A stretch of DNA of 64,000 bases from Candidatus Obscuribacterales bacterium. GTDB taxonomy: Bacteria > Cyanobacteriota > Vampirovibrionia > Obscuribacterales > Obscuribacteraceae. Under the pieces are notes generated by a model that did not search any database, was not told the origin of the DNA, and worked only from the letters and a program-made list of their open reading frames with translations. Position 1 is the first letter of the stretch. Every line of letters begins with the position of its first letter. A program made the position numbers and the translations under genes. The stretch covers positions 124,001 to 188,000 of the forward strand of contig JAIETZ010000003.1 in assembly GCA_019744775.1 (NCBI GenBank), given 5' to 3'. Of this stretch, positions 856-59,156 are shown in pieces.

Positions 856-1002
856 CCGGAGCGTTACGAGTACGGGACCGACGAATCAGCCGAGCGAGAG
901 CTGCGATGAGCAGGTCGCTGAGAGGCGTGAATAGCAAGGAGAAGGCACTAAATGTGCCTTCGGGCTAAGCGAAGGTGAAGACTTGTCTGAACCGGAGCGT
1001 TA
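856..1002 (+). repeat. Dispersed leader element, copy A (dnaK leader)
   Basis: Copy of the element defined by AGCGAGAGCTGCGATGAGCA, then GGTCGCTG, AAGCGAAGGTGAAGAC and a terminal CCGGAGCGTTA (992-1002). The core starts near 885; a second, isolated CCGGAGCGTTA lies at 856-866, suggesting a partial tandem copy. The core matches copy C, upstream of tRNA-Ser, almost base for base over about 40 nt at each end. It ends just before the AAGGAG (1005-1010) that serves dnaK. The rest of the 765-1020 gap is AT-rich (several TATAA-like hexamers at 765-795), where the promoter should lie, but no clear -35/-10 pair can be assigned. Confidence 0.8.
936..978 (+). promoter_or_regulatory. SD-AUG hairpin and 8-codon leader ORF upstream of dnaK
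   Basis: AAGGAG at 936-941 is followed by 10 nt and an ATG at 952. The ATG sits in the hairpin AAGGCAC-TAAAT-GTGCCTT (942-960). The frame reads MCLRAKRR and stops at TGA 976-978. The same AAGGAG-N4-CACTAAATGTG arrangement occurs before hslO, with different outer stem bases that still pair. A translated leader or a temperature-sensitive structure is possible. Both are inference. Confidence 0.45.
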
Positions 1003-6274: not shown

Positions 6275-7168
6275 CTAAGATTGGCTTTCACCAGACTTGT
6301 TTGAAAGGTCCAATAAAAGATCTTTGTCGACTTGATAAACGTTGTTGCAAAATTCGCAGCGGCCTTCGGCTTGTCCATCTTCGTTGGCCATCGAAAGTAG
6401 GGAAGCTTTATCGAGGACTTTCAATGCTTCGACAAAACGTGCTTTTGAGCATTTGCACTGGAAGCTTAGTGGCAGCACTTCAGTAATTGGGCGGACATCA
6501 AATCCTTGCAAAATTCTAGACAGGATTTCTTCAATGCCCATTCCTTGTCTCATGAGAAACGTGAATGTACCGAAAGTGCTAACGTTGTTTTCCAACTGGC
6601 ATACAGTATCTTCGTTGGCATCAGGCAATAATTGAACAATCAATCCGCCGGCAGCCTCAACACCTTCGCTTGTAATATGAGTACCGATAATGACTATCGA
6701 ACCGGTTTGTTCCGAATCCACTAGATAGCGATTTATGTCCTCAGCAATTTCGCCTGTCTCCAATTCAACGGTCGATTGGTGCGGCATGCCAAAGCCGCGA
6801 TCAATTATCACGTGCAAGTAGCCCGTGTTTCCTACAGCTGCCCCAACATCAAAATTCCCCAGGGAGTTTAACGGTAACTCAACCTGGGGATTTTCTACGT
6901 AGCCTCTAACGGTGCCTTTGGGATTTGCGTCAACCATTACCGCTCCCAAGGGTCCATTGCCCTGGAACTTTAAGGCTACCTGTCCCTGTTTAGTGACAAA
7001 TGAAGCCAGCAACGACGCGCCTGTCATTGCCCGTCCAAGAGCGGCAGTAGCTGTGAAAGAGAGGTTGTGACGCCTGCGGGCTTCGGCTACGAGATTTGTG
7101 GTCGTGGCAATGACGGCTCGGATAGTTCCATCGGAAGATATTGCTTTTAAAATGCCGTCTTGCATCAT
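6275..7168 (-). CDS. hslO: Redox-regulated chaperone Hsp33
   Basis: Cytoplasmic holdase activated by oxidation and unfolding. The C-terminal zinc switch is intact: CxC (QCKCS) followed about 27 residues later by CxxC (CEFC). The N-terminal beta domain starts MMQDGILKAISSDGTIRAV, which matches the family start. I therefore begin at ATG 7168 (297 aa), although the frame is open upstream for 26 more codons through the dispersed element. The only Shine-Dalgarno is the GGAG inside that element's CCGGAGCGTTA, 10 nt before the ATG. A 14-codon leader ORF ends in an ATGA overlap with this start. It lies downstream of prmC on the same strand, separated by 164 nt. Confidence 0.95.
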   Translation of the reverse strand: MMQDGILKAISSDGTIRAVIATTTNLVAEARRRHNLSFTATAALGRAMTGASLLASFVTKQGQVALKFQGNGPLGAVMVDANPKGTVRGYVENPQVELPLNSLGNFDVGAAVGNTGYLHVIIDRGFGMPHQSTVELETGEIAEDINRYLVDSEQTGSIVIIGTHITSEGVEAAGGLIVQLLPDANEDTVCQLENNVSTFGTFTFLMRQGMGIEEILSRILQGFDVRPITEVLPLSFQCKCSKARFVEALKVLDKASLLSMANEDGQAEGRCEFCNNVYQVDKDLLLDLSNKSGESQS

Positions 7169-7225
7169 GTTCGTAACGCTCCGGTAGTTTTGTCGATCCG
7201 ACAACACATTTAGTGTTGTCTCCTT
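7165..7225 (-). promoter_or_regulatory. SD-AUG hairpin and leader ORF overlapping the hslO start
   Basis: On the minus strand AAGGAG (7225-7220) precedes, by 10 nt, an ATG at 7209. The ATG sits in the hairpin GACAACAC-TAAAT-GTGTTGTC (7220-7200). The frame reads MCCRIDKTTGALRT and its TGA (7167-7165) overlaps the hslO ATG (7168-7166), an arrangement typical of translational coupling. The dnaK leader carries the same AAGGAG-N4-CACTAAATGTG core with different outer stem bases. Confidence 0.5.
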
Positions 7226-7296
7226 ACCTTCGCTTGCCTCCGGCAATCCTGGTTAGCTTCGCAGCGACCGGCTTCACCGCCGCTCTTGCTCAGCTA
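7174..7296 (-). repeat. Dispersed leader element, copy D (hslO leader)
   Basis: Read on the minus strand it runs from AGCTGAGCAAGAGCGGCG through GGTCGCTGCGAAGC, the hairpin TTGCC-GGA-GGCAA (7246-7234) and AAGCGAAGGT to CCGGAGCGTTA (7184-7174). An SD-AUG hairpin is inserted between AAGCGAAGGT and the terminal motif. It ends 5 nt before the hslO ATG and supplies its Shine-Dalgarno. Confidence 0.8.
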
Positions 7297-8207: not shown

Positions 8208-9284
8208 TTAGGAAATCGCTGACTCCAGCAAATAGCGCTGGTTGACCAAAATATTTGCTTCGATAATCTTGTCCATATCGCCTTCGATGATTTGATCAAG
8301 ACCAAAGTTTTGGTTGATGCGGTGATCGGTAACACGATTATCTTTGTAGTTGTAAGTGCGAATCTTTTCTGAGCGATCGCCGGTGCCGACTTGTGCGCGC
8401 TTCTCGTCGCTCAAGGCTTTTTGTTGGGCTTCCAATTCCATTTGATAGAGCTTGGCTCGCAGAATTTGTTTGGCGCGCTCTTTGTTTTGCAATTGGCTGC
8501 GTTCTTCCGAGCAGGCAACCATCAATCCCGATGGTTTGTGTACGATGCGCACGGCTGTTTCTACTTTGTTGACGTTTTGTCCACCGGCGCCGCCTGAACG
8601 CATGGTGGAAATGTCCAAATCGTTTTCATTCAATTGAACATCTACTTCGTCTGCTTCCGGCATTACCGCAACAGTTGCTGTTGATGTGTGTACACGACCG
8701 GAGGCTTCCGTAGCTGGTACGCGCTGTACGCGGTGAACGCCAGACTCGTATTTTAGTCGGCTGTAAACATCGGCGCCGCGGATGTTGAGAATGACTTCTT
8801 TGTAGCCGCCCATGTCGGCCGCGTTAGCGCTAACCATTTCTGTTTGCCAGCCGCGCTTGTCGGCGTACTTGAGATAAAGGCGGAGCAAATCACCGGCAAA
8901 AATTGAGGCTTCATCGCCACCTGCGCCGGCACGAATTTCCATGATGATGTTTTTGTCGTCGTTAGGATCTTTGGGAAGAAGCATGATCTTCAGCTTCTCG
9001 ATTAACTCATCTTCCTTGTTCTTGAGCATTGCTGATTCTTGCTCGGCAATTTCGCGAATTTCTTTGTCGGACTCGGTGCGTAGAATTTCTTGAGCGCCTT
9101 CGCGTTCTGCTTGGGTGCTCTTTAACTCATTGAACGCTTCTACAGTTTGTTCAAGAGTGTGACGTGTCTTGGCTAAGCGACGGAACTCATCCGGTCGCGA
9201 CATGATTGTCGGATCAGCTAACTGCTCTTCCACTTTCTGAAAATCGCGCTCGATTTCCTCGAGCTTGTGAATAAAGTGATCCAT
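8208..9284 (-). CDS. prfA: Peptide chain release factor 1
   Basis: Terminates translation at UAA and UAG. The 358 residues show the codon-recognition tripeptide in [17 protein letters not shown] (PAT, the PxT class of RF1) and the peptidyl-tRNA hydrolysis motif [12 protein letters not shown] (GGQ) with its expected neighbours. The N-terminal coiled region is normal. ATG 9284 is 4 nt after the dispersed element's terminal CCAGAGCGTTA. AGAG in that motif lies 8 nt upstream and is the only Shine-Dalgarno-like sequence. First gene of the prfA-prmC pair. Confidence 0.97.
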
Positions 9285-9287
9285 TTG

Positions 9288-9382
9288 TAACGCTCTGGTT
9301 CCGCTAACGCTACACCTTCGCTTAGCGTTCGCCGCTCCCGCTTCACTGCGATCCGCTCCTCGCGGCTCTTCGCTCAGCTACG
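9288..9382 (-). repeat. Dispersed leader element, copy B (prfA leader)
   Basis: On the minus strand AGCTGAGCGAAGAGCCGCGA, GGATCGCAGTGAAGCGGGA and CTAAGCGAAGGTG lead to CCAGAGCGTTA (9298-9288), one base different from the usual CCGGAGCGTTA. The element is the immediate 5' leader of prfA. Confidence 0.75.
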
Positions 9383-9676: not shown

Positions 9677-10477
9677 CTAGGCTTTCGACGAGCAAAGCTG
9701 GGCTTTCTTTGCGCCCGCTTTGATGATGGCTAGAAACTCGTCAGCAGCAAGGCTGGCGCCGCCTACGAGGGCTCCGTCAATGTCGGATTGAGCGAGTTGT
9801 TCTTCTATGTTGGAAGCTTTTACGCTGCCGCCGTAGAGGACAGGAATGGTTTCCGGGAATTCTTTAGATTTGAAGAGGTTGCCAATTGTTGTGCGAATCA
9901 ACTTGGCAACTCGATTTGCCTCGGCTGATTCACATACTTTGCCTGTCCCGATTGCCCAGACTGGCTCGTAGGCTATGACCAAAGTCTTGAGTTCTTCCAT
10001 TGTCAGGTCTGACAAAGCTGCAGCAATTTGTCTTGAGATAACCGAGTCAGCCAAATTTGACTCGCGCTCATCGAGAGTTTCGCCAACGCAAACAATTGGG
10101 ATTAGCTTATGTTTAAGAGCGGTCTTTAACTTCAAGTTAACTGTGGCGTTAGTTTCGCCAAAGAATTGGCGTCTTTCCGAGTGTCCAATGATGACATAGG
10201 TCACGCCTAAGTCAGTCAACATGTTGGCAGCAATTTCGCCTGTGAAAGCGCCGGACTCATGGTGGTCCATATTTTGAGCGCCGACATCAATGCCTTTGCC
10301 GGCAGCGGCTGCCACTGTTGGCAAGCTTGTGAAAGGAGGACAGAGAACGATCTTCGGCAATTCTTTTTCGTTTTTAATTCCCTGCAAGATTGCTTCGGTG
10401 AGCTGCTTAGCTTCGCCGGTAGTTTTGTGCATTTTCCAGTTGCCGGCAATAATCGGCAAACGATGAGCATGTGCCAC
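9677..10477 (-). CDS. tpiA: Triosephosphate isomerase
   Basis: Glycolytic/gluconeogenic interconversion of dihydroxyacetone phosphate and glyceraldehyde 3-phosphate in the cytoplasm. It has 266 residues with the TIM-barrel signatures: GNWKMHK near the start (active-site Asn/Lys), GHSERR (His electrophile), AYEPVWAIGTGK (catalytic Glu and loop 6) and LYGGSVKASN (phosphate binding). Start is GTG at 10477, because AGGAGG lies 7 nt upstream; a longer frame to 10507 lacks a ribosome site. Divergent from lipA with 57 nt between the starts. Confidence 0.96.
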   Translation of the reverse strand: MAHAHRLPIIAGNWKMHKTTGEAKQLTEAILQGIKNEKELPKIVLCPPFTSLPTVAAAAGKGIDVGAQNMDHHESGAFTGEIAANMLTDLGVTYVIIGHSERRQFFGETNATVNLKLKTALKHKLIPIVCVGETLDERESNLADSVISRQIAAALSDLTMEELKTLVIAYEPVWAIGTGKVCESAEANRVAKLIRTTIGNLFKSKEFPETIPVLYGGSVKASNIEEQLAQSDIDGALVGGASLAADEFLAIIKAGAKKAQLCSSKA

Positions 10478-13415: not shown

Positions 13416-13427
13416 ATTCTTTGGAAC

Positions 13428-13446
13428 GGGCGCATGCAATGCGCCC
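13428..13446. repeat. Dispersed palindrome GGGCGCATGCAATGCGCCC, copy 1
   Basis: Near-perfect palindrome in the 55-bp gap between the convergent cobS and 13471 genes, followed by CTAC. One of five copies in the window, each at a gene 3' end. It could act as a REP-like element or a bidirectional terminator; there is no T-run. Confidence 0.8.
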
Positions 13447-13470
13447 CTACAAGAACAAGGGCAGGCACGT

Positions 13471-17928: not shown

Positions 17929-18537
17929 CTACATGTGGGTTAAGTAATCGCGCCTGACATAGGGATCGGTAATGTCGTTCAAATCCATTCTCAGCATCTT
18001 GTAGGATGAGTAATCACCTTGTCGCTGAATTGATAGCGTGACTTCTGTTCCTGGTAAGCCGACAATCATGTCGTAAACTTCTTCTTTGCTCAAGCCGACA
18101 GTGGGAATGCCATCGACTGCCACAATAATGTCGTCGTTGCGCAAGCCGACTTTAAACGCCGGCGTCAGCGGGAATACCCTGTTGATTACAGGCGGTCTGC
18201 CCATCGACATGACGAATTTTACGCCGATGATACCAATGCCGGAATTGGCGCTACCCGATAATCCTTGATCGCGAGCATCACCACGCAGGAATCTTTCCCA
18301 GTCTGACTGACCAATACCGCTGCGCATGTTGGGTTGATTCTGTTTGATGGAGCGTTGTATGCCGCCTTTTAATGCCGGACCAGTCTTTGGAGCCGGTTGG
18401 CTCTGAATCGGTGGGGCTGTTTGGGGTACGATGCTGTCCAATTCCGGCACAGCAGGCTTCAGGACAGGCTTGTCCTGCGCGTAACAGGGCAGACCGGCAA
18501 ATGCCACGACTAACACAAGCGAAATAGGCCAATTCAA
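17929..18537 (-). CDS. Exported PDZ-domain protein
   Basis: 202 residues. Signal peptide MNWPISLVLVVAFAGLPCYA (1-20), then a Pro-rich linker and one PDZ domain (about 105-190). The domain has FPLTPAFKVGLRNDDIIVAVDGIPTVGL, the usual carboxylate-loop and GLxxGDxIxxVdG pattern. No protease domain is present, so it is not a DegP/CtpA enzyme but a stand-alone peptide-binding protein of the periplasm. Start is TTG with GAGGA about 9 nt upstream. The dispersed element copy E lies about 90 nt upstream. Probably cotranscribed with the GH38 gene, 7 nt downstream. Confidence 0.8.
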   Translation of the reverse strand: MNWPISLVLVVAFAGLPCYAQDKPVLKPAVPELDSIVPQTAPPIQSQPAPKTGPALKGGIQRSIKQNQPNMRSGIGQSDWERFLRGDARDQGLSGSANSGIGIIGVKFVMSMGRPPVINRVFPLTPAFKVGLRNDDIIVAVDGIPTVGLSKEEVYDMIVGLPGTEVTLSIQRQGDYSSYKMLRMDLNDITDPYVRRDYLTHM

Positions 18538-19888: not shown

Positions 19889-19899
19889 TGGACCAGGAA

Positions 19900-19918
19900 G
19901 GGCGCATGCAATGCGCCC
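19900..19918. repeat. Dispersed palindrome GGGCGCATGCAATGCGCCC, copy 2
   Basis: Second copy of the palindrome, followed by CTAC as in copy 1. It lies directly next to the long inverted repeat, and a decayed partial copy (TGCAATGCGTCCGTACG) follows at about 19930. The gap 19801-20041 is therefore mostly repeat sequence. Confidence 0.8.
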
Positions 19919-20041
19919 CTACACCTTTTGTGCAATGCGTCCGTACGATTTTTACGCAGGGTTTGTGGTTACAGCTGTATAATGTCCTTAATTCTGGAAA
20001 CAGGTCGTCTTTTGGCCACCACCAAGTTTATAGAGGTAATG

Positions 20042-23861: not shown

Positions 23862-23954
23862 ACAGCGAGAGCGAGCTTTGCGAATGAGCAATGCGAGTGG
23901 AGCGTGGGTTGCTGGATAGCAAGTGAAGGCGAGGCTCTGCGAGCCGGAGCGTTA
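23862..23954 (+). repeat. Dispersed leader element, copy F (leader of the herA pair)
   Basis: ACAGCGAGAGCGAGCTTTGC, GAATGAGCAATGCGAGTGGA, the hairpin TTGCT-GGAT-AGCAA (23909-23922), GTGAAGGC, a second hairpin GGCTC-TGC-GAGCC and terminal CCGGAGCGTTA (23944-23954). It is immediately followed by AAGGAGG and the ATG of the 84-residue gene. It sits between tRNA-Leu and that gene. Confidence 0.8.
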
Positions 23955-23967
23955 AAGGAGGATTCTT

Positions 23968-24222
23968 ATGCGCAGTCAGTGGCCGCACACAGTTAGCGAT
24001 ATCGTGAAATCGTTGGACGGTGTTTGGGGTCTTGTAGGTGCCACGGATACACAAGGCAACTTGATTCGCTTAGAGCGCAGCCTGCATGAACCTCTCACTT
24101 ACAAAATAACTGAGTATGATGGAGTGAGTGAAGACAAAGTAGTTAGGGAACAACTATACCAAGCGGGCGAAAAGGAACAAGCAGTCAAACAATTTGCCCG
24201 CGCTTTGGGATTTGATGGCTAA
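23968..24222 (+). CDS. Small protein preceding the HerA-like ATPase, unknown function
   Basis: 84 residues, no TM or signal peptide. Not recognised. The start reads QWPHTVSDIVKSLDGVWGLVGATDTQGNLIRLERSLHEP, with a helical Lys/Glu/Gln-rich end. A strong AAGGAGG is 6 nt upstream of the ATG. Its last 8 nt overlap the herA start, so the two are translationally coupled and may work together. It could be a HerA partner or a minimal roadblock-like or DNA-binding module. No motif decides this. Confidence 0.7.
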   Translation: MRSQWPHTVSDIVKSLDGVWGLVGATDTQGNLIRLERSLHEPLTYKITEYDGVSEDKVVREQLYQAGEKEQAVKQFARALGFDG

Positions 24223-25867
24223 AAAACCGGATTACTTGGGAATAGTTACGCAGGGTTCGCTTTCGGGCGGATTAGAAATGCGTCTCAATGAAAAGGCGTC
24301 CGTTGAAGATTTACGTGTTGGACGCTTTGTTGTTGTTGAAGGAAAAAATACGCGCTTCTTCAGCATGTTGACTGATGTAAGCCTGTCTACTGCCAATCCA
24401 AGAATACTAGTCAATCCACCACAGGGCGATGACTTTGTTTTAGAAGTGCTTTCCGGTATTTCAACATTCGGTACGGTGAAAGTGCAGCCCATGCTCATGC
24501 TTGAGCAAAATGGTAAAGCACAGCCTGAATTAAGCCCGGTCAAAACGATTCCTAGCCATTTTTCGTCGGTTTACGAAGCAACTGCAGATGACTTTGCCTT
24601 GGTCTTCGGCGAAGAAGGCAAAGGCGCGGACAACGGCTACTTCAATATTGGGCAGCCTCTCAATATGGATACGCCTATTTGTATTGATTTGTCGAAGTTT
24701 GTTGAAAGATCAAATGGCATATTTGGAAAATCCGGCACAGGTAAGTCTTTCCTGACCCGTATTTTTCTGTCAGGCATGATCAGCAAGGATATGGCGTCGG
24801 TTCTAGTCTTCGACATGCACAACGAATATGGCTGGCAGGCTATTTCAGAAAACAAATCACAGCCGCGTGTAAAAGGTCTCAAGCAATTATTCGGAGCCGA
24901 TGTTGTTGTCTTTAGTTTGGATGCCGAATCTTCTCGTGCACGTGGTCTGCCTGATGCGCATGAGCTATACATTGGCTATGACCAGATTGAAATTGAAGAT
25001 TTAGAGCTTCTGAAATCAGAACTGGCGCTTTCTGAAGCGACTCTGGAAAATGCCTACATCGTCAAAGAGAAATTTGGTCCCAATTGGATATCCACCCTGT
25101 TGGAGATGACTCCTGAGGAAATTGACGAGTTTACGGAAACAAACAAGGGACATCCGACGGCCATAAAAACCTTGCAGCGCAGATTGAACACTGTAATCGC
25201 AAAGACCCAGTACCTAAAAACTCGTGTCAATCATAATTACATAGATGAGATTATTCGGTTTATCCAAGCAGGCAAACACGTCGTGTTGGAATTTGGTCGC
25301 CAGAATAATCTACTTGCCTATATGCTTGCGACAAACATAATCACCAGACGCATTCATAGAGAATACGTCAAACAGTCTGAAGTTTATCTGGCAAATCCTG
25401 AAAAGGTAGCGCCGCCGCGCAAGCTGATGATTGTTATTGAAGAAGCGCATAAGTTTCTGTCGCCGCAAGTTGCTAAACAAACTATTTTCGGCATCATCGC
25501 CCGTGAAATGCGTAAGTACTTCGTGACGCTGTTGATTGTCGATCAACGACCAAGCGGTATTGATCCAGAAGTGCTCAGTCAAATAGGCACGAGAGTCACG
25601 GCCCTTCTAAATGATGAGAAAGACATCGAAGCTGTTTTCACCGGCGTGCCGGGCAGCCAGGCATTGCGAACAGTCTTGTCCCAGCTGGATCCCAAACAAC
25701 AGGCTTTAGTTTTAGGCTATGCCACGCCGATGCCGGTGGTTGTTCGTGCGCGTCCATTTGATGCGCAGTTTTATCAGGCAGTCGCTCCCTCAAGCGAGAT
25801 TCCGTCTGATAAGCAGACGCGCCAGGCAATGGCTCGAAAAGCCCAGGCAGAGCTCTTTGGCGGCTAA
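24215..25867 (+). CDS. HerA-type (DUF87) ATPase/helicase
   Basis: 550-residue FtsK/HerA superfamily motor that forms hexameric rings and translocates DNA; archaeal HerA acts with nuclease NurA in end resection. An N-terminal HAS-barrel-like region covers about 1-140. Walker A FGKSGTGKSFLTR near 172, VFDMHNEYGW after it, and Walker B LMIVIEEAHKFLS near 405 are visible, as are the conserved QRPS sensor (DQRPSGIDPEVLSQIGTR). ATG 24215 lies inside the preceding small gene. No NurA or Sir2/DUF4297 effector is adjacent, so the nuclease or effector partner is missing from this locus. Role in DNA repair or defence is open. Confidence 0.88.
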   Translation: MAKKPDYLGIVTQGSLSGGLEMRLNEKASVEDLRVGRFVVVEGKNTRFFSMLTDVSLSTANPRILVNPPQGDDFVLEVLSGISTFGTVKVQPMLMLEQNGKAQPELSPVKTIPSHFSSVYEATADDFALVFGEEGKGADNGYFNIGQPLNMDTPICIDLSKFVERSNGIFGKSGTGKSFLTRIFLSGMISKDMASVLVFDMHNEYGWQAISENKSQPRVKGLKQLFGADVVVFSLDAESSRARGLPDAHELYIGYDQIEIEDLELLKSELALSEATLENAYIVKEKFGPNWISTLLEMTPEEIDEFTETNKGHPTAIKTLQRRLNTVIAKTQYLKTRVNHNYIDEIIRFIQAGKHVVLEFGRQNNLLAYMLATNIITRRIHREYVKQSEVYLANPEKVAPPRKLMIVIEEAHKFLSPQVAKQTIFGIIAREMRKYFVTLLIVDQRPSGIDPEVLSQIGTRVTALLNDEKDIEAVFTGVPGSQALRTVLSQLDPKQQALVLGYATPMPVVVRARPFDAQFYQAVAPSSEIPSDKQTRQAMARKAQAELFGG

Positions 25868-28570: not shown

Positions 28571-28595
28571 TCGATCGCAGGTAATTGTTTTTGTA

Positions 28596-28616
28596 GGGGC
28601 GCATTGCATGCGCCCC
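28596..28616. repeat. Dispersed palindrome GGGCGCATTGCATGCGCCC, copy 3
   Basis: Complete copy with GTAG on the left and CTAT on the right, lying 25 nt after the murA stop and between two convergent genes. The opposite orientation to copies 1 and 2 is shown by ATTGCAT versus ATGCAAT. Confidence 0.8.
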
Positions 28617-28651
28617 TATTTGTTGGTGCTGACGATTAGGGATCCTCAGGC

Positions 28652-30745
28652 TTAATACGTTTCGGCCATAAACGAACCGTAGTCAAAGCTTGCCGCGCTG
28701 CTTGTTAGAGTTACAATCACCGCTGGGCTGGTGTTCATGGCTTGAGTCGCGGATGGCAAGTTTGTTGTCTTTGTCGCAACAAGGTTACCGTTAATGTATG
28801 CCTTGATTTGAGTCGGATCAGAAGCATCAACAGTGAAGGTAATCTTTGTTCCTGCCGACATGGCTACTCCGGTATCGGTAAATGACCAAACTCCTCCGCC
28901 TGAGGATGTTCCGAATTTCCAATTGGTGTCACCAGCGCTGGTAGACCAACGGAATCCGCAGCCCCCGCCGGTGATAGTTGGAGCATCGCCCCCACTTATA
29001 CCACCTGGATTAAGATTGCATATCCAATACCTGACGTTGGTTGTGGTGTTTGGTGCGATTGAAACTTGCATCTTCGGCTTAAGTTCATATCGGGTTAGCG
29101 CATTGGTGGGCTGCTCGAAGCTGTTTTGACCTGATGTTGTTCCAGTGGTTAAACGATTAGTCGTTATACCATCGGTAACAGTCGCGTTTGCTATAGATCC
29201 GCTTGTGGTAACTGTAAAGCTTGTACCAATTGCGGTTCTGGTATTTACGCTGAAAGACGTTGGGTAGGAGTTAATAACGCGTTTCACTGGTGCAAGGTTT
29301 GGGTTTACTTCTCCGCCACCGGTCGATTGAATGCTAATGCCTGTAGTCGTCTTGGTAATGGTGACGTTGTTACCCGCAGTAATCGAATTGAGTATTGGCG
29401 TTGTGCCAGCCACTGCAAAAGTCCAAGTGGCGATTTTGCTTGTGCTTTGTTCTGTCATCCAGAGATTGCCGTCAGAGCCAATACATATTGATGTGACGCC
29501 GGTGCTTGAAGAGGGGAGCGCATACTCTTGAATCGAACCAGTGGGGGAAACTGATGCAATCTTATCTTTTGCATATTCGCAAAACCATATATTCCCATCA
29601 GGTCCCGCGCAGATTCCGTCTGGTGAGCTGCTGGCAGTAGGAATCGTGTATTCCGCAAATGTACCTGTAGTACTAACTTTTGCTACTTTGTTGACTCCTG
29701 ATTCTGTAAACCAAAGATTGCCATCGGACCCAGTACAGATTGAGAATGGGGAGGCTGAACCGGTTGGTACTGTGTATTCAGTGATGGTTCCTGACGTTGT
29801 AATTTTTGCGACCTTGTTTCCGGCGCTCTCCACAAACCAAAGATTACCCTCCGGACCAGCGCAAATTGAACGTGGTTGAGAACTTCCGGTCGGCACGGTG
29901 TACTCGGTGATTGTACCGGCGGTGGTGATTTTACCTATCTTGTTGCCGTTGAATTCGGTAAACCATAAATTTCCATCTGGTCCAGTGCAGATACCAGTTG
30001 GCTGCGACGATGCTGTGGGAACAGTGTATTCAGTAAAGCTACCGCCTGTTGTAACCTTGGCTATTTTGTTACCAGATTTTTCAGTGAACCAGATATTTCC
30101 GTCTGGACCTGTACAAATTCCCCAAGGAGCTGAGGAACCTGTCGGAATGGTGTATTCCGTAAAACCACCTATTGGGGTTATGGTTGCTATCTTGTTTTGA
30201 TTGTTTTCAGTAAACCAGATATTTCTATTTGGTCCTGTGCAGATACCTAGTGAATTGCTTGAACCTGTCGGTACTGAATATTCTGTTCCTGCGCTAGAAG
30301 CGGCAAGCGTGTGATCAAACGGCAACGGTTGTATCAATGCATTGGCTGGCATGATTACGTTAGGAACGCTTGCGGGAAGATTTCCTGCGGTGAGTGCATT
30401 GGTTGTGCTTCCACCGCCACCGGCACCATTGCTTGCAGAAGTAACCAGCCCTTGGGAGTTTACAGTGATGTCGGCGTTTGTATAGGAGCCAGGTGTAACA
30501 CCGGAACTTGGAAGGCTGACGTTAACTTTGATCTGCCCTGGTGAAGTGGTATCAATAGTGGTGCCGGTGCCATTGACTAGCTGGCGACTTGTTGGCACAT
30601 CTGGAGTTTCATCATTGACTGTGATTGGTGTATTGACCGGAGTTGGTGGGCATTCCGCATTTACCGCGGCACAAAATGCAAACATCGATAAAAGCGCAAT
30701 TGATGCTTTCCAATTATTGAAACGACGAGTTGATTTTTTAAACAT
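28652..30745 (-). CDS. Exported seven-bladed Vgb-like propeller protein with tail-fibre-like ends
   Basis: 697 residues. Signal peptide 1-30 (...FAFCAAVNA). The segment near 90-110 (ADITVNSQGLVTSASNG) resembles the linkers of phage tail fibre proteins. Seven repeats of about 42 residues follow (about 150-450), each TEYTVPTGSS-P-GICTGPDGNLWFTE---NKIAKITT-G. This is the virginiamycin B lyase/NHL-type blade and predicts a closed seven-bladed propeller. Then ITAGNNVTITKTTTGISI (tail-fibre like) and a beta-rich C-terminal domain of about 190 residues. The Vgb catalytic residues cannot be confirmed, so a binding role at the surface is as likely as lyase activity. AAGGAAA precedes the ATG. Divergent from the 30840 gene. 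Confidence 0.75.
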   Translation of the reverse strand: MFKKSTRRFNNWKASIALLSMFAFCAAVNAECPPTPVNTPITVNDETPDVPTSRQLVNGTGTTIDTTSPGQIKVNVSLPSSGVTPGSYTNADITVNSQGLVTSASNGAGGGGSTTNALTAGNLPASVPNVIMPANALIQPLPFDHTLAASSAGTEYSVPTGSSNSLGICTGPNRNIWFTENNQNKIATITPIGGFTEYTIPTGSSAPWGICTGPDGNIWFTEKSGNKIAKVTTGGSFTEYTVPTASSQPTGICTGPDGNLWFTEFNGNKIGKITTAGTITEYTVPTGSSQPRSICAGPEGNLWFVESAGNKVAKITTSGTITEYTVPTGSASPFSICTGSDGNLWFTESGVNKVAKVSTTGTFAEYTIPTASSSPDGICAGPDGNIWFCEYAKDKIASVSPTGSIQEYALPSSSTGVTSICIGSDGNLWMTEQSTSKIATWTFAVAGTTPILNSITAGNNVTITKTTTGISIQSTGGGEVNPNLAPVKRVINSYPTSFSVNTRTAIGTSFTVTTSGSIANATVTDGITTNRLTTGTTSGQNSFEQPTNALTRYELKPKMQVSIAPNTTTNVRYWICNLNPGGISGGDAPTITGGGCGFRWSTSAGDTNWKFGTSSGGGVWSFTDTGVAMSAGTKITFTVDASDPTQIKAYINGNLVATKTTNLPSATQAMNTSPAVIVTLTSSAASFDYGSFMAETY

Positions 30746-32194: not shown

Positions 32195-35100
32195 ATGGCA
32201 AACAATAGAATCATCTGTCTTTTTCTGACAATGCTTACACTGGCGAATTCGCCGGTTGCATTTGCTGCTGACACAGCTACAGTGAAAAGGCTGAATGCAC
32301 CGCCTCCGCCGGCAATGCCTGCCTTCATTCGTCGTGGCACAAAAGCCATACAACTCCACAACAACAAAGTATTGAAGTTTTCCGCCAAGGCGACAGACAG
32401 CGAAATTTCTGCTGCTCGAATTTTTCCAGAGCCGCTTTGTCCAATGAGCACAAAGCCTGTGCCAGGCGAAAACCAAGCACTCACAAAAGCGCTTTCATCG
32501 TTTAAGTCTAAAGGTGATTGTGAAAATGTTAGCGATCTGAATAGCTTTCTTGCTAAATACCCACGTTCGCGTTGGCGTGCATCATTAGAGCTGAATTTGG
32601 GACAGTGTCGTTTTGAGTCCGGCTATCCTAGTGATGCCTTGCGTTATTGGAAATCAGCATGGACTATTGCCAAGCCAGAAAAAGGACAATTGCAAACAGC
32701 CGTAGCCAACGGGGCAATTTCCAGACTGCTGATGTTAGAAGCGCGACTCGGTAAGATGGAGGACATCAGCAGTCAACTAGCCGAAATCAAAAATCGTCCG
32801 ATGCGTGGCTCAGATGAAACTCGTGTACACAGCGCGCGCACCGGTCTGGAAACAATGAAGACGGATCCAGGCATAGCTTTCAAGTGTGGACCGTATGCAA
32901 TTAATAGTCTTTTGTTTGGCAAAGAGCATGTTAAATCCTGTCATCCAACTTTATATAAAGCCGCTTCGACTATTAAAGGAACGAATTTATGGCAATTGAA
33001 AGGTTGGGCAACTGAAGCAGGTTTGGATTATCAACCAGCTAAAAGAATGCCGAATTCGCCTATTGTCGTTCCAGCTGTTATGCACTGGAAGGTAGGCCAC
33101 TTTGCCGCGATAACTGAAGAAGCCGATGGACGATATCGACTTAAAGATCCAACTTTTGATACCGCTGGTGATAGATGGCTTAGCAAAAAGGCATTAGATG
33201 CTGAGAGCGACGGCTACTTTCTGGTGCCTGCAGGTAAATTGCCCAACGGCTGGCGAGCCTTAAGTCAGCAAGAAGCAGAAAATGTTTGGGGCAAGGGCTT
33301 TGCCAATGATAGCGACATGGATGCTATGACCCCGGATTGTCCTAGGACAAAACCTATGGATCAATGTGAAAAGGGAATGGCCCAAGCTGCATTCTGGACA
33401 ATGCAGACAACTACTAATATTTCCGACATTCCATTGACATATAGTCCTCCAGTTGGACCAGAGATGAACTTTCGTGTCAACTACAACTATCTAGAAAACA
33501 ATCAACCCGGCTCATTTGCCTTTACAACACTCGGAAAAAATTGGACGCTCAACTGGTTGTCCTATTTGACTCTGGATGCTTCTAAGAATGCCACCGTGCG
33601 GGTAAGTGGCGGCGGCTGCGAAGTATTTACCAATACCGGTACGGTGGGCAGTCCTGCCTACGCGAATCCAAATCTAACTTCGCAATCCACACTGGCAATT
33701 GTTGGCGGCAACTATCAGCGCCGTTTGCCTGATGGAACGATCGAGCTATTCAATGATACTGACGGTACAGGCCGGATCTTTATGACACAGGTGTTTGATC
33801 CGCAAGGCAACAGTATTTCAATTCAATATGACTCAAATTTTCGAATTTCAACAATTACGGATGCCATCGGACAGACATCCGCACTTACATATGCAACCAA
33901 CAGCTTTGGTTCACCTGGCTATTACAACCTTACTCAAATCAGTGACCCGTTTGGACGTACTGCCACATTTACATATGATTCAACGTACGCCCTTCTTCTA
34001 TCAATAACCGATCAAATAGGACTGGTATCTAAATTTACATATGATTCAGGTTCTAATTTTGTTACGGCAATGACGACGCCTTATGGAACGACATCCTTTT
34101 ACAGTTACACGCCAGCCCGACCGAGCAATAAATTACCTACAGGGTTGAGAATCAGTTTTCCAGATGGAACTTCGTGCGTCGTGGAAAACTGGAAAGAACA
34201 CATCCTTCAAACCTACTATTGGGATAGAGAAGCGATGTCTCGTTATCCCAATGATCCAGCAAATAGCGTTAATCCGGTCTATTCGAGTACCTGGCACTGC
34301 GCTGTCACCGAATGGCAACTATTAGCTCCGACAACTACCACTCAAAGCCCTGTCCCAAATTGGTACGAGCCTGCTCTTACACAGACAGGATCTGATACTA
34401 GGACTAGTTACTACTATGATGGCTCGACGGCTACCGGCGATGGCGATCACTATTGGACCGGACCAAGTAACAAACCCAACACAGTTACCCAGAACACTTC
34501 AGAGTGGGACTATACCTACAATACATACGGGCATATGACGCAGTCCATAGATCCCAAAGGGCGCAAATTTTCTTATACATATGCCGCGAATAACATTGAT
34601 CTGATTCAAGCAAAGCAAGTTAGAGGAAGTAACAACGATGTAATTGGTCAATGGAGTTACAATCAATTCTCTGCACCACCCACGGCAGCGCTTAGTCAGC
34701 ACCTTCCGCTTTCCTATATAAATGGATCTGGGCAGCAAACCATATACTCCTATAACGCATTTGGTCAGACTACACAGGTGTGTGATCCCCGAGGAAATGT
34801 GTGGAAATACACGTACGGCAGTATCCCAGGCAATTCTCTTCCTGCTTATCTGACCCAAATTGATGGACCACTGTCTGGTAATCAGGACGTCACGACATTT
34901 ACCTACGATGGTTACGGACGGGTCTATCAAGCAACGAATTCCCAGGGCTATACACTAACGTATAGCTATGACAATGCAGACAGAATTACCCAAATAACCT
35001 ACATGGACGGCACGTATGATCAAATTGTCTATGACAGACTTGATCAAATCCTGTTTACTGATCGACTAGGAAGAGTGACGCAAAATTCGTATGACAGCAT

Positions 35101-38100
35101 GCGTCAGCTTGCCTATACAGTTGATCCGCTTGGTCGTAAAACCAAATATACATGGTGTGGTTGCGGTGCTGTAATGTGTTTGACTGATCCAGCCGGGCAT
35201 ACTACGACCATGCATCACGATCTTGAGGGACGTCTCTCAAGCAAGGTCTACGCTAACGGTACAAAATACAGTTACACATACAATAACTTCGGACTTCTGC
35301 AAAACCGTACGGATGCTTTGAGTCAGGTCACGAACTATTCTTACAACAGTGACCTGTCACTTGCAGAGACCAGTTATTCGAAGGCAGTTAACCCCACGTC
35401 ATCGGTATATGTAACCTACGACCCGAATTATCCAAGAGTAACTAATAGACAAAATGGTAATTCCGGACTTTCTTATACCTACAACCCTTACCTAACGTCG
35501 ACCGGTGGAATTGCCACTCTTACACTTGGTGGCTCTCCAACAACTGGCGATGTTGTATCGGTAACGGTAGCGAACACTACTGCCACTAATGTGTCTCTCA
35601 CCGGGACTCCGACCACAGGCAATGTCGTCAACGTTCTGGTAATTAACAACAACCTTTCTGGTGGCAAGTACAATCTGCAATACACAGTCCAGGCTGGTGA
35701 TACAACTTTGTCCACATTGGCAAGCAGTATTGCCACTGCAATTAACGGTAACGGGACGCTTTCGGCAGCCAACATCTCCGCTAGTGCAAGTAGCTCCAAT
35801 GTGAAAATATCAGCCTATGGTGCGACTGGTGCATTTAGCATTCTGCCGAATGCCAATGGCACTGTCACCGAGACAGTTGGCGGCTCAATAAATGCCGGCG
35901 ATGTTGTAAGCGTGTCGGTTTTTGACGCGGGAATTCCATCAAATACATCTACTGGATTGCCTGCTGGACAGCGGACTTATTCGTACACGGTCGGCGGCGG
36001 TGATACGACAATTACAATAGCCAATCAGCTTTCAACTGCAATTAACGCTGATGCCACACTTTCCGGATTGGGTATTACTGCCTCATGGTCTGGCGGAAAT
36101 TCCTACTTCACCATTTCGTCCAATTCTGCTAATCAAACTCAATATGCCCAGTGGGTGAGCCCCGCTGGTAATGAAACAATTACTTTGACTGGTGGTCCGT
36201 CTGAGGCTGCTGCTACAGCCATATTGCCAAGCAGCTCAACGACAGTTAATTACACAGTGCAGTCAAGTGACACTACTTTGACGACGTTGGCGAATTCAAT
36301 TAAGACTGCAATCAATGCGAATTCTGCCTTGAGCAATGCAGGTGTAACTGCCACTGCCAATGCCAGCTATGGCGTGATTTATCTATCTGCACCCGCTCAA
36401 TTTGGTGTGCCCGCGGTAACAGTCGGCGTCAGTGGAGTGTCTCCAACTGAAACGATCACAACGGCAGTCTCTGGAAGTATTTATTTTTCCGGAACCCCCA
36501 CGACAGGTAACAGAATAAATGTAACTGTGTACAATGACACGCTAAGTGGTGATAGTGTCAATTTGCAATACACGGTGCAATCGGGTGATACAACCGCCGC
36601 ACTTTTAGCAAGCTCAGTCGCCAGCGCTATAAATGCAAACTCAACAATTTCCGCTGCCCAAATTGCTGCTACTGCAAGTGGGTCTATTGTCACTCTGACA
36701 GCCCCACCTGCCGCCGGCACGGTGGGTATTACCGCTAATGCCAACGGCACTGTGACTGAAACACTCACATTCTCAGGAACTTTGGGTGATACATTCAGCA
36801 TCACAGTTTATGACCCTGCCTTGCCTGGAGGACAGGCAACTGCATCTTATACGGCAAGTGTTAGTGATACCGCCACGGTTATAGCTGCGGCCTTGGCTTT
36901 TAGGCTCAATTCAAGTACGCATACTTCTGGTATCGTTGCCACCTCAAGTGGTGCGGTAGTTAGTATTAACTCCTCCACTAACAGTCGCACAGTAGTTCAA
37001 CAGAAGACAACTGGTACATCAACAATTGTTCAAGGTGGTGGTTCAACAAGTACGATATTGGCTGGAAGTGCATTTGGCGCCGGAAAATTGTCGTCAACCG
37101 CCAATACAGCAATCAACAATTCTATGACAACATATATCTACGATTCGCTGGGTCGTACCACTAATAGGTCAATAAATGGCCCAGCTAATTCCACAACATG
37201 GGAATATGATGCAATCAATCGTGTAACAAGCGAAGTAAACCCACTCGGCACTTTCAATTACGGATATTTGGATAACTCGCCAGGTTCATCAAAAGGTGAT
37301 CCTCGTTTAGCCTCGATAACCTATCCAAATTCACAAACGACCACTTTCAATTACCTACCCAACATCCTAGATCAACGCTTGCAACAGATAGTCAACGCAA
37401 ATCCAAGCGCCGTAATGGTCTCACAATTCAATTACGCTTATGACCCAGCAGGACAAATACGTCAGTGGCAGCAGCAACAAAATGCCGGCAATATCCACAC
37501 TGATTACGACTATGACCTAGCCGGACAACTCACCTCTGCACAATCCGACTCCGGCAGCATTTTCAAAGCATACATTGGTGGTGCAGTGCACGCTGGCGAT
37601 GTTGTGTCAGTAACTGCATATGACGCATCGCTTACTGGAACTGTACCTGTCGGACAGGAAACAGCCAGCTACACAGTAACCGGTGGCGATACGGCATCTA
37701 GCATTGCCACAGCTCTGGCCAGTTCAATCAACTCAACGATGAGCAACATAAGCGCTACGGCATCTTCGAGTGGCTCCATGGTAACCATAAGTACTTCACC
37801 AAACTACACCACAAGCTTTACTTGTGCAGTAACCGGGGCCGGAGCAACAGACACAATTGCATTAAGTCAAAGCAGTGCAATTTCTCCGCTGCACAAACAG
37901 AACTACTATAAATATGACTGCGCCAGCAATATTGTTGGAATGCAAGGAGACAGCACAGGCAGCTTCCCCTCCGGACTAACAACGACAGCAGCACAAGCAA
38001 CATACGACTGTGTAAATCAACTCACAGAAGTAAAGGCCGCAGGACCTGTTGCCTTCCAAGCCACAACTGTAAATCCCGTCAAATCGGCTGTGGTAAATCT

Positions 38101-39667
38101 AAGCCAGACGGCCACCATAAGTGGAAACATCCAAGCAGGAGACGTCCTTTATCTAAGCGTCCATGATAAACAGCTTCCGCAAGCAGAGATAATTGCCTAC
38201 ACAGTTGGTGGAAGTGACACGCTGACAACGATAGCATCTGCCATTACCACAGCAATAAACGCAAACATGACGCTGAGTACGCTCGGTGTAACAGCAACGT
38301 CTGTTGGAGCAGTAATTACAATATCGTCGACATCTAGCAGCAAGACAAGCTATTCACAAGCAGCTAGCCCGAATGCAAAAACTGTAATAGCCTTGAATGA
38401 CATACGAGGCGCATCAGAAAACATAAAGCCATCGACAAGCTTTGCTAGCAGTCCGAAGCTGGCTGTTGGTACAAACACTGCATCCGTGACAGCAGTCAGT
38501 GGAGGCGGAACTGCAACAACGGACACGTACCCAGTCACGATTGCCAACGGCACCTCAAAGTCATTTAGCTCAGACGCTAACGGTAATATGACGAATACGA
38601 CTACAGGTGCTTACCCACAGTATTCGTATGATGCCGAGAATCGAATAATTCAGATGAATTATGGCGGTACCAACAGTACAAATATTACATACGACGCTGC
38701 GGGACGCTATTCGCAAATTTCGGAAACATACAATGGGGCGGTATTGAGTATCAGCAACTTGGTGTGGTGTGGAGATGAGATTTGCGAGACACGCCTTTCC
38801 GATAACAGCAGTTGGCGTCAATATTTTTCACTGGGACAGATAAACTTCTCCGGTGGATCTAATACAAATTACTTTTATAACTTCGATCATGTAGAGTCTG
38901 TTCGAGAAATGACAGGCACGGATGGAGGGGTTGTTGATCAGTATAGTTATGATTCATGGGGAGTAGGTTCGAAGATTGTTGGAGTCGGACCTGATGCTGA
39001 TTTTGGCTATGCAAATATGTATCTCAATAGTCGTAGCGGACTATACTTGACGAAATATAGAGCTTTCAGTCCGAGTAAGGCTCGCTGGCTAAGTAGGGAT
39101 CCGATGGGAATTAGCGCAGGAACCAATGAGTTTATTTATGTGGGGAATCGCCCGATATCCTACAGAGATCCATCAGGTCTTGGTCCTATAAACGCTGCAA
39201 TATGGGGAACCGCTGGGGCTACTGGCGGATACTATGGTGGTGCCCTCACCGGGGGTGTCCTATCATTGCCAGGAGGAGGCGGACTTGCAATTCCTGGAGC
39301 AGTAGCAGGAGCGCTCCTCGGTGGAATGGCTGGCACTGCTGCAGGTTGGCTCATTCCGGATCCCAAAATTAGCGATATACCAGATCCCTTTTGTGCTGCT
39401 AAGCCGCCGAAAAATGCGTTAGATCCTAATGGACCAAAGGCTCCGGGGAACCCTGCTGATTATCCGGAGACTGGATTTGAGGAACCCAAGGGTGGACCTA
39501 ATTGGGTTCCGAACCCGAATGGACCAGGTAAAGGATTTGAGGCTGCTGACGGGAATGTTTGGGTTCCTAGTGGACCTAAGGGACACGGTGGTCCACATTG
39601 GGATGTTCAAGTTCCTGGGCGTGCCGGAACAGGCTTTAATGTGTATCCAGGGGGACGTGTCCGGTAA
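32195..39667 (+). CDS. Giant RHS/YD-repeat protein with N-terminal C39-like peptidase and C-terminal toxin-like domain
   Basis: 2490 residues. Sec signal peptide 1-25 (ending AFAAD). An N-terminal helical region precedes a papain-like domain with Cys231 (FKCGPYAINSL), His302 (HWKVGHFAAI) and Asp318 (LKDPTF), the peptidase C39-like triad. From about 420 the RHS shell begins, with YD repeats such as TFTYDGYGRVYQATNSQGY. The shell is interrupted three times by beta-rich repeats (about 1106-1625, 1790-1886 and 1969-2052). The RHS core ends with YLTKYRAFSPSKARWLSRDPMG near 2290 and PSGLGP. The 160-residue variable C-terminus has a Gly-rich hydrophobic segment and the end GGPHWDVQVPGRAG...NVYPGGR, which resembles polymorphic toxin type 37 as I remember it. 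Small genes that could give immunity follow directly. Likely a surface or secreted antagonistic toxin with self-cleavage potential. Confidence 0.88.
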   Translation: MANNRIICLFLTMLTLANSPVAFAADTATVKRLNAPPPPAMPAFIRRGTKAIQLHNNKVLKFSAKATDSEISAARIFPEPLCPMSTKPVPGENQALTKALSSFKSKGDCENVSDLNSFLAKYPRSRWRASLELNLGQCRFESGYPSDALRYWKSAWTIAKPEKGQLQTAVANGAISRLLMLEARLGKMEDISSQLAEIKNRPMRGSDETRVHSARTGLETMKTDPGIAFKCGPYAINSLLFGKEHVKSCHPTLYKAASTIKGTNLWQLKGWATEAGLDYQPAKRMPNSPIVVPAVMHWKVGHFAAITEEADGRYRLKDPTFDTAGDRWLSKKALDAESDGYFLVPAGKLPNGWRALSQQEAENVWGKGFANDSDMDAMTPDCPRTKPMDQCEKGMAQAAFWTMQTTTNISDIPLTYSPPVGPEMNFRVNYNYLENNQPGSFAFTTLGKNWTLNWLSYLTLDASKNATVRVSGGGCEVFTNTGTVGSPAYANPNLTSQSTLAIVGGNYQRRLPDGTIELFNDTDGTGRIFMTQVFDPQGNSISIQYDSNFRISTITDAIGQTSALTYATNSFGSPGYYNLTQISDPFGRTATFTYDSTYALLLSITDQIGLVSKFTYDSGSNFVTAMTTPYGTTSFYSYTPARPSNKLPTGLRISFPDGTSCVVENWKEHILQTYYWDREAMSRYPNDPANSVNPVYSSTWHCAVTEWQLLAPTTTTQSPVPNWYEPALTQTGSDTRTSYYYDGSTATGDGDHYWTGPSNKPNTVTQNTSEWDYTYNTYGHMTQSIDPKGRKFSYTYAANNIDLIQAKQVRGSNNDVIGQWSYNQFSAPPTAALSQHLPLSYINGSGQQTIYSYNAFGQTTQVCDPRGNVWKYTYGSIPGNSLPAYLTQIDGPLSGNQDVTTFTYDGYGRVYQATNSQGYTLTYSYDNADRITQITYMDGTYDQIVYDRLDQILFTDRLGRVTQNSYDSMRQLAYTVDPLGRKTKYTWCGCGAVMCLTDPAGHTTTMHHDLEGRLSSKVYANGTKYSYTYNNFGLLQNRTDALSQVTNYSYNSDLSLAETSYSKAVNPTSSVYVTYDPNYPRVTNRQNGNSGLSYTYNPYLTSTGGIATLTLGGSPTTGDVVSVTVANTTATNVSLTGTPTTGNVVNVLVINNNLSGGKYNLQYTVQAGDTTLSTLASSIATAINGNGTLSAANISASASSSNVKISAYGATGAFSILPNANGTVTETVGGSINAGDVVSVSVFDAGIPSNTSTGLPAGQRTYSYTVGGGDTTITIANQLSTAINADATLSGLGITASWSGGNSYFTISSNSANQTQYAQWVSPAGNETITLTGGPSEAAATAILPSSSTTVNYTVQSSDTTLTTLANSIKTAINANSALSNAGVTATANASYGVIYLSAPAQFGVPAVTVGVSGVSPTETITTAVSGSIYFSGTPTTGNRINVTVYNDTLSGDSVNLQYTVQSGDTTAALLASSVASAINANSTISAAQIAATASGSIVTLTAPPAAGTVGITANANGTVTETLTFSGTLGDTFSITVYDPALPGGQATASYTASVSDTATVIAAALAFRLNSSTHTSGIVATSSGAVVSINSSTNSRTVVQQKTTGTSTIVQGGGSTSTILAGSAFGAGKLSSTANTAINNSMTTYIYDSLGRTTNRSINGPANSTTWEYDAINRVTSEVNPLGTFNYGYLDNSPGSSKGDPRLASITYPNSQTTTFNYLPNILDQRLQQIVNANPSAVMVSQFNYAYDPAGQIRQWQQQQNAGNIHTDYDYDLAGQLTSAQSDSGSIFKAYIGGAVHAGDVVSVTAYDASLTGTVPVGQETASYTVTGGDTASSIATALASSINSTMSNISATASSSGSMVTISTSPNYTTSFTCAVTGAGATDTIALSQSSAISPLHKQNYYKYDCASNIVGMQGDSTGSFPSGLTTTAAQATYDCVNQLTEVKAAGPVAFQATTVNPVKSAVVNLSQTATISGNIQAGDVLYLSVHDKQLPQAEIIAYTVGGSDTLTTIASAITTAINANMTLSTLGVTATSVGAVITISSTSSSKTSYSQAASPNAKTVIALNDIRGASENIKPSTSFASSPKLAVGTNTASVTAVSGGGTATTDTYPVTIANGTSKSFSSDANGNMTNTTTGAYPQYSYDAENRIIQMNYGGTNSTNITYDAAGRYSQISETYNGAVLSISNLVWCGDEICETRLSDNSSWRQYFSLGQINFSGGSNTNYFYNFDHVESVREMTGTDGGVVDQYSYDSWGVGSKIVGVGPDADFGYANMYLNSRSGLYLTKYRAFSPSKARWLSRDPMGISAGTNEFIYVGNRPISYRDPSGLGPINAAIWGTAGATGGYYGGALTGGVLSLPGGGGLAIPGAVAGALLGGMAGTAAGWLIPDPKISDIPDPFCAAKPPKNALDPNGPKAPGNPADYPETGFEEPKGGPNWVPNPNGPGKGFEAADGNVWVPSGPKGHGGPHWDVQVPGRAGTGFNVYPGGRVR
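35510..38350 (+). repeat. Tandem and scattered ~100-residue beta repeats inside the RHS gene
   Basis: Coding repeats. Each unit follows GDVVSVTV--------YTVQ-GDTT---LA-SI--AINAN-TLS---I-ATASG--V-ISA. Four to five stand in tandem at 35510-37070, and single units recur at about 37560-37850 and 38100-38350. These interrupt the YD repeat array. They are diverged at the base level, so they are old duplications rather than recent slippage. Confidence 0.75.
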
Positions 39668-52031: not shown

Positions 52032-52071
52032 TTGCCCTTTTGTCAGCAATGCAAACCTCGCGTCCGTCGTA

Positions 52072-52091
52072 GGGGCGCATTGCATGCGCCC
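52072..52091. repeat. Dispersed palindrome GGGCGCATTGCATGCGCCC, copy 4
   Basis: With GTAG to its left, 41 nt after the EF-G-like stop; same orientation as copy 3. The right flank (GCTTCC) lacks CTAC, so this copy is trimmed on one side. Confidence 0.8.
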
Positions 52092-52214
52092 GCTTCCAAA
52101 AAGTGAATACATTCCTCAGATCTACAAAAGAAGCGCCATAGATGCTAAGATCCTTTGACTTCGAGTTTTTCGAGAAGATTTGTACTGTCTAAGTTTTCTT
52201 AGGGGGAGGTTCCC

Positions 52215-53420: not shown

Positions 53421-53436
53421 ACCACTCGGATTGTAT

Positions 53437-53455
53437 GGGCGCATTGCATGCGCCC
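53437..53455. repeat. Dispersed palindrome GGGCGCATTGCATGCGCCC, copy 5
   Basis: Between the convergent 52842 and 53465 genes, 16 nt after the first stop. Flanks lack GTAG and CTAC, so only the core is left. Confidence 0.75.
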
Positions 53456-53464
53456 TTTGTTTTG

Positions 53465-58445: not shown

Positions 58446-59156
58446 TCAATAATACAAATTACCCCAGACCGCCTCTAACTGATCCATGGTTTTGAATAGT
58501 GTCGTGCGCATGTGCTTATCTTTGGTGCAATATGCTTGCCAGTACAAGTCCCACCACTCTCCGTAAGCTTTTTCACGACCTTTAGCGGATTCCTCATCCA
58601 ATACTTCTTGTCCCAGGATCATTGGTTTCATAGGACAAGCGGTGTCGGTGCATTCAACAGGTGGAAAGTCATCCGGTGTGAGGCTGGCTCCCTTATTAAC
58701 CCAAGCGCGGCTAATATTCTCCACCGTGGCTGGATAAAGGTGCTTAATTTCCATACGGAAAATGTCGTCCGCCCGGCGGCAGCGTTCGGGATAAAACTCC
58801 ACGATGCCTTCCTCGGGAAATTTTGTTTGAGGTGGTACATTCTCGCCTTCCGAGCTCATCACGACTAGATGACCCGGGAAGCTAGTAATCATTTTGTCGA
58901 ACATGGCTTGCTGGATGCGTCGCCAGAGCTGCCTGGTGAGCTTGAAGTGGCCGTTGTCGGAAATTGACAGAGCCGCATTAACTACTTTTAGACAGTGGGC
59001 TAGTCGGTAAAGATCCGGATTTTCTATATGTTGATCAAGAAGACGGTAATAGCGATAAGACTCATCTAGAGCCAACTTATCGCGACGATCCATTCGTGAC
59101 ACGGTTGCCCTCCCAAGGATTCCAAAATTTACTGCACTGACTTTATACCCAGGCAT
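58446..59156 (-). CDS. Conserved-looking soluble protein, unknown function
   Basis: 236 residues, no signal or TM. Helical and rich in Trp/Tyr/Arg (YRYYRLLDQHIENPDLYRLAHCLKVVNAALS, GEWWDLYWQAYCTKDKHMR). One CTDTAC segment near 175. Not recognised. It lies 45 nt after kdsC in the same direction and could be the last gene of the KDO operon. A role in envelope metabolism is only a guess from position. Confidence 0.6.
   Translation of the reverse strand: MPGYKVSAVNFGILGRATVSRMDRRDKLALDESYRYYRLLDQHIENPDLYRLAHCLKVVNAALSISDNGHFKLTRQLWRRIQQAMFDKMITSFPGHLVVMSSEGENVPPQTKFPEEGIVEFYPERCRRADDIFRMEIKHLYPATVENISRAWVNKGASLTPDDFPPVECTDTACPMKPMILGQEVLDEESAKGREKAYGEWWDLYWQAYCTKDKHMRTTLFKTMDQLEAVWGNLYY

Follow-up and report, generated by a model that had tools for sequence, protein, structure and literature searches.

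The usual view of small bacterial repeats is that they are tolerated where they stay clear of translation starts. Among the closest described systems, the BOX and RUP elements of Streptococcus pneumoniae have been proposed to be IS-mobilised via their terminal inverted repeats, and the small repeats of the pneumococcus are overrepresented between convergent genes (PMC3049150). Effects of bacterial MITEs that have been reviewed include RNase sites, sRNAs and gene inactivation, whereas a search of the review's text turned up no mention of ribosomes (PMC10969869). Described here is a dispersed repeat family of ~96 nt with seven copies in a 64,000-nt stretch of a Candidatus Obscuribacterales genome (the window). 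The preferred reading, with a probability of about 0.77, is a non-autonomous mobile repeat (a REP/MITE-like small interspersed repeat) that is specific to one family of the Obscuribacterales and donates ribosome sites. The element is probably undescribed as a family. It is tolerated, and its use as a leader that carries a ribosome site is probably an exaptation.

Seven copies had been proposed from the window alone, and all of them fall into the family when they are aligned together with copies retrieved through an exact match to the end CCGGAGCGTTA, an 11-mer that occurs 38 times in the 4.1-Mb genome (0 for the reversed-pattern control). The claim was borne out by a covariance model built from 14 copies (R1), which recovers 7/7 window copies at E values of 1e-10 to 1e-22; the training set included copies D, E and G, whose scores are therefore not independent, while those of A, B, C and F are. 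Copy A had been placed at 856-1002; positions 887-1002 stand as a full element, and 856-886 proved to be what is left, at the 3' end, of another copy that has decayed. The features of the window are as follows.

856..886, plus strand: orphan 3' end (CCGGAGCGTTA...), remnant of a decayed copy neighbouring A
887..1002, plus strand: copy A, full element, dnaK leader (dnaK starts at 1021), R1 65.5 bits
941..961, plus strand: nested hairpin GAAGGCACTAAATGTGCCTTC (CACTAAATGTG type) inside copy A
7174..7296, minus strand: copy B, hslO leader (hslO starts at 7168), R1 79.7 bits
7200-7220: nested CACTAAATGTG-type hairpin inside copy B
9288..9380, minus strand: copy C, tRNA-Ser/prfA spacer (prfA starts at 9284), R1 64.6 bits
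9517..9608, minus strand: copy D, tRNA-Ser leader, ending 4 nt before the tRNA and lying downstream of the TATAAT box, R1 73.7 bits
18628..18722, minus strand: copy E, leader of the PDZ gene 17929-18537, R1 84.1 bits
23863..23954, plus strand: copy F, upstream of the ORF 23968-24222 and the HerA gene 24215-25867 (Pfam), R1 52.9 bits
58329..58424, plus strand: copy G, antisense to the minus-strand gene on either side, R1 103.3 bits
57165-58322 and 58446-59102, both minus strand: the genes flanking copy G (radical SAM and a gene of unassigned product, respectively)
13424-13451, 19896-19923, 28593-28620, 52067-52100 and 53433-53460: five copies of a second dispersed palindrome, G(T)AGGGGCGCAT(TG/GC)ATGCGCCC(CTACA)
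29634-30286: tandem array of five 126-nt units, inside the ORF 28652-30745 of the minus strand
32231-39667: an ORF of about 2,480 aa, very long and containing internal repeats

The search of this genome and its relatives that the sequence-only reading had proposed was run with covariance models. At least 105 copies were found in the 4.1-Mb genome with R1 at E<=1e-3, a lower bound because 150 of 1165 candidates were scored, and two congeners carry similar numbers (at least 74 and at least 104 copies). A second model (R2) detected related elements within the order Ca. Obscuribacterales, where 21 of the 53 genomes have them, with a patchy distribution even inside genera; R2 matched neither the three genomes of the order's second family nor any of 193 further genomes sampled from the phylum. 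In other genera of the family the sequence is a version peculiar to the genus: the middle differs, and the outer domains and the CGGAGCGNTTA end are the same. The host itself falls in Candidatus Obscuribacterales according to the relatives of its PrfA. L129 (SBAT01000423.1), titled 'Chloroflexi bacterium', is a congener by PrfA (92% identical) and synteny and is likely mislabelled. Using Rfam 15, only tRNAs reach the gathering score in the window, and the elements of four loci are without a match at E<=1. The literature search on repeats in Obscuribacterales yielded nothing relevant, and the open-access papers searched contain no description of the family or of a repeat donating ribosome sites on such a scale; as regards Rfam and these papers, the initial impression that this is not a known family holds.

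The 5' domain of the element consists of GC-GAA-GC, AA, a hairpin (six or seven pairs, loop of the GATGA type), GCN and GC-GAA-GC; it is followed in the window's genus by a middle hairpin (GCC-GGAN-GGC) and by a 3' domain made up of GC-GAA-GG(T/C), a variable hairpin, (A/G)CC-GGA-GC and then G-TTA. Over 125 copies, aligned by fitting to the covariance model and in agreement with an independent MAFFT alignment, 94.0% of cells are paired, 18 of 20 pairs show changes on both sides, and 340 double-changed cells are observed vs 98.5 in shuffles; when the partners are shifted by 1-3 columns, pairing falls to 24-39%. Covariation extends across genera (51 double-changed cells vs 12). The GAA/GGA internal loops, as counted, suggest tandem purine mismatches. 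Each end of the element (AAGCGAAGC and GGAGCGTTA) pairs inside its own domain, and the two do not pair across the whole element, so that terminal inverted repeats of the MITE kind are not present. A further stem that covaries around a fixed CACTAAATGTG core is the nested hairpin (GGAGA)CGACACTAAATGTGTCGTCG, noted in the window and at loci L300, L302 and L303. The core CACTAAATGTG occurs at 21 sites genome-wide vs 0 for the control, about 13 of them within elements and at differing positions. The same hairpin is also found alone inside another repeat (TTTGTCATTTCGACCAAGGAGA...), and it looks like a smaller mobile module.

Covarying secondary structure would be expected if the element were a cis-regulatory leader RNA (such as a riboswitch, a thermosensor or a binding site for a protein) marking out a regulon. 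Each copy would then be retained for the control that it exerts on its gene, and the Shine-Dalgarno sequence, which does sit inside the 3' domain, would be held in the 3' helix. The placement of the copies bears on this alternative in both directions. In the window, six of the seven copies lie in sense leaders as originally read, namely those of dnaK, hslO (HSP33), prfA, tRNA-Ser, the PDZ gene and the pair of small ORF and HerA gene, while G is antisense; the TATAAT box upstream of copy D places it within the transcribed tRNA-Ser leader. Based on our own gene calls and ARAGORN, the 105 intergenic copies comprise 55 sense-tandem, 12 antisense-tandem, 26 divergent and 12 convergent ones, and the excess of sense over antisense copies in tandem spacers of the window's genus (P=1e-7) speaks for a leader RNA, as does the proximity to start codons. 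A sense feature lies downstream of 81 copies, 24 of which end 1-6 nt before it, with a second cluster at 15-20 nt; of the six sense tRNAs, five follow the element at a distance of 2-6 nt and one at 9 nt. Upstream of sense copies, boxes resembling -10 elements show a mild enrichment at 0-45 nt. Against a leader RNA, the downstream genes are unrelated as judged by eye from their N-termini (ribosomal proteins, tRNAs, pyrG, carA, clpC and others), and 24 copies have an antisense gene downstream, about half of them overlapping or abutting its stop codon (-4 to +3 nt) with the terminal TTA as TAA. The tandem sense:antisense counts in other genera are 9:1 (G020), 3:0 (G018), 5:1 (G023), 1:1 (G019) and 5:9 (G010), and the consensus changes by genus. 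Random strand and placement, which would have refuted the first reading, are not what is seen in the window's genus, where placement is sense-biased; in G010 it is not sense-biased. Because G010 shows no such bias, the sense bias is probably selected and not intrinsic to the element. The position of the 3' end beside a gene boundary, next to TTA/TAA, recurs in all genera examined.

In the window, inspection of the sequence agrees with the earlier observation that the element's own GGAG/AGAG is the sole Shine-Dalgarno of hslO and prfA; a native GGAGG comes after copy F (23863..23954). Nineteen confidently called genes of the genome start within 6 nt of a copy. In 18 of these, a core Shine-Dalgarno is found at 6-10 nt, and at such a gap it must be the GGAG of the element; of the other genes, 51% have any core Shine-Dalgarno. 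At larger gaps between element and gene, a native Shine-Dalgarno often lies within the gap. For about 19 genes of the genome the GGAG of the element is located at Shine-Dalgarno distance and, to judge from this position, would act as the Shine-Dalgarno sequence.

Sites were compared between the window's genome and its sister species (L128/G001, with a nucleotide identity of about 87-94%, and L129/G002). Regarding the genes of the window, the hslO site is filled in the window and empty in L128, where it reads AAGAGGCTGTTACGATG and has its own Shine-Dalgarno (AGAGG); the site of a tpiA-like gene (window 9677-10477) is empty in the window and filled in L128; the prfA site is filled in the window and L128 and lacks the element in L129; and the dnaK copy (A) is largely deleted in L128, with the 5' domain gone and the same orphan remnant next to it. 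The tRNA-Ser leader contains an element in four lineages (window, L128, L129 and L130), each of different sequence and with two in tandem in L130, and is empty in three other relatives, which suggests an insertion hotspot or repeated conversion. A further 25 orthologous genes were compared: the element is common to both species at 12 sites (at two of them with internal deletions), whereas in the sister species one site holds a remnant, one a copy in opposite orientation, and 11 are empty. This polymorphism shows gain or loss and not its direction, and some differences may be deletions of old copies, as internal deletions are seen among the compared sites. At locus L229, the second dispersed palindrome fills the spacer of G001 where the window's genome (G000) has a 96-nt element. 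Copy E is shared with G001, its stem changed and still paired, and three other shared sites show double compensatory changes in place; pairing was thus kept after insertion, although conversion between copies may be an alternative source of such changes.

Compensatory change in place is also in accordance with a leader RNA, but a conserved leader would be kept upstream of orthologous genes, and occupancy is not conserved by gene. Because dnaK, hslO and prfA keep, lose or lack the element by species and the versions are genus-specific, a conserved regulatory leader, one of three options originally considered, is not supported and has to be regarded as quite unlikely. CsrA, a GGA-binding regulator considered for the GGA loops, does not rescue it, as no match to PF02599 was found in G000, G001 or G002. 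The option of a REP-like mobile unit with a ribosome site is supported because 11-13 of the 25 sites differ, the fold covaries and the GGAG serves as Shine-Dalgarno. Regulation by the element is a possibility.

A mobiliser was sought for the mobile repeat. Target-site duplications are not in excess (71 copies, all offsets, k=3-8; best 6 observed vs 2.9 expected). The Y1 transposase (PF01797) has 0 matches in G000, which is 97.8% complete, and in G001 and G002, and a RAYT/Y1-driven REP was rejected on these grounds; Y1 is absent from most relatives, too, and its single match in G023 has no element within its 3.2-kb locus. Retromobility was likewise rejected, since no reverse transcriptase (PF00078) was found in G000, G010, G020 and G018, all of which are copy-rich. 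Regarding viral carriage, the pattern is absent from viral contigs. As a sub-hypothesis that would name the mobiliser, the repeat may tentatively be considered an IS200/IS605- or REP-type single-strand element whose Y1 was lost or is too diverged, with bottom-strand hairpins recognised, insertion 3' of TAAN and no target duplication. The lack of duplications, the imperfect subterminal hairpins, the GTTA at the empty hslO site and the 3' ends next to TTA/TAA in all genera are consistent with it, whereas the missing Y1 argues against it. Two other empty sites are GATA/TTTA-like, and the remaining ones are too diverged to read, the insertion junctions being blurred by about 10% divergence between the sister species. 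The 3' GTTA also resembles the attC core (G-TTRRRY), and the GCGTTA at the 3' end and an orientation matching that of the following gene would fit an integron-like attC site scattered outside arrays. A conserved RYYYAAC is missing from the 5' end in the base profile, however, there are no cassette arrays, and the repeats occur singly in housekeeping operons; with its 5' partner box missing, this highly improbable explanation is largely refuted.

Under the preferred reading of a mobile repeat, new copies would arise by a transposition-like process that joins the 3' end beside a TTA/ATA-like site in spacers. Sense copies in leaders would be kept as they bring a ribosome site and leave expression unblocked, antisense copies at gene ends would be kept as the TTA end supplies a TAA stop, and other insertions would be removed. 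Once inserted, the structure would be part of the transcribed leader, with some copies staying paired. An unlikely variant is a mobile leader RNA that spreads independently of a transposase, or coupled to transcription, with a preference for the transcribed 5' ends of genes, and replaces native ribosome sites with its own; genes for ribosomal proteins, tRNAs and chaperones would in this way come to share a single structured leader. More than 100 copies lie in spacers, many at the starts of core genes, and some appear to supply the ribosome site; a repeat would thus be in the process of rewriting how housekeeping genes initiate translation, and sister species offer filled and empty alleles that can be compared.

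The element resembles ERIC and other bacterial MITEs in length (about 100-130 nt), in numbers of tens to hundreds of copies and in its probable co-transcription with genes (PMC10969869), but no TIR/TSD signature was detected here. It shares with REP sequences mobilised by RAYT/TnpA-REP a high copy number (>100 per genome), imperfect hairpins or palindromes, an extragenic position and lineage-specific variants (PMC2817692, PMC8266576), and differs from them by its about 96 nt with three stem regions, as compared with one palindrome of 20-40 nt, and by a genome without Y1 transposase. Like BOX and RUP, it is a small modular intergenic repeat that is strongly folded, probably often transcribed in leaders and subject to slow turnover from strain to strain (PMC3049150). 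Unlike in BOX and RUP, no terminal repeats or duplications were found; the preference of the pneumococcal repeats for convergent spacers is the opposite of the placement seen here, where sense leaders are favoured and a Shine-Dalgarno sequence is donated.
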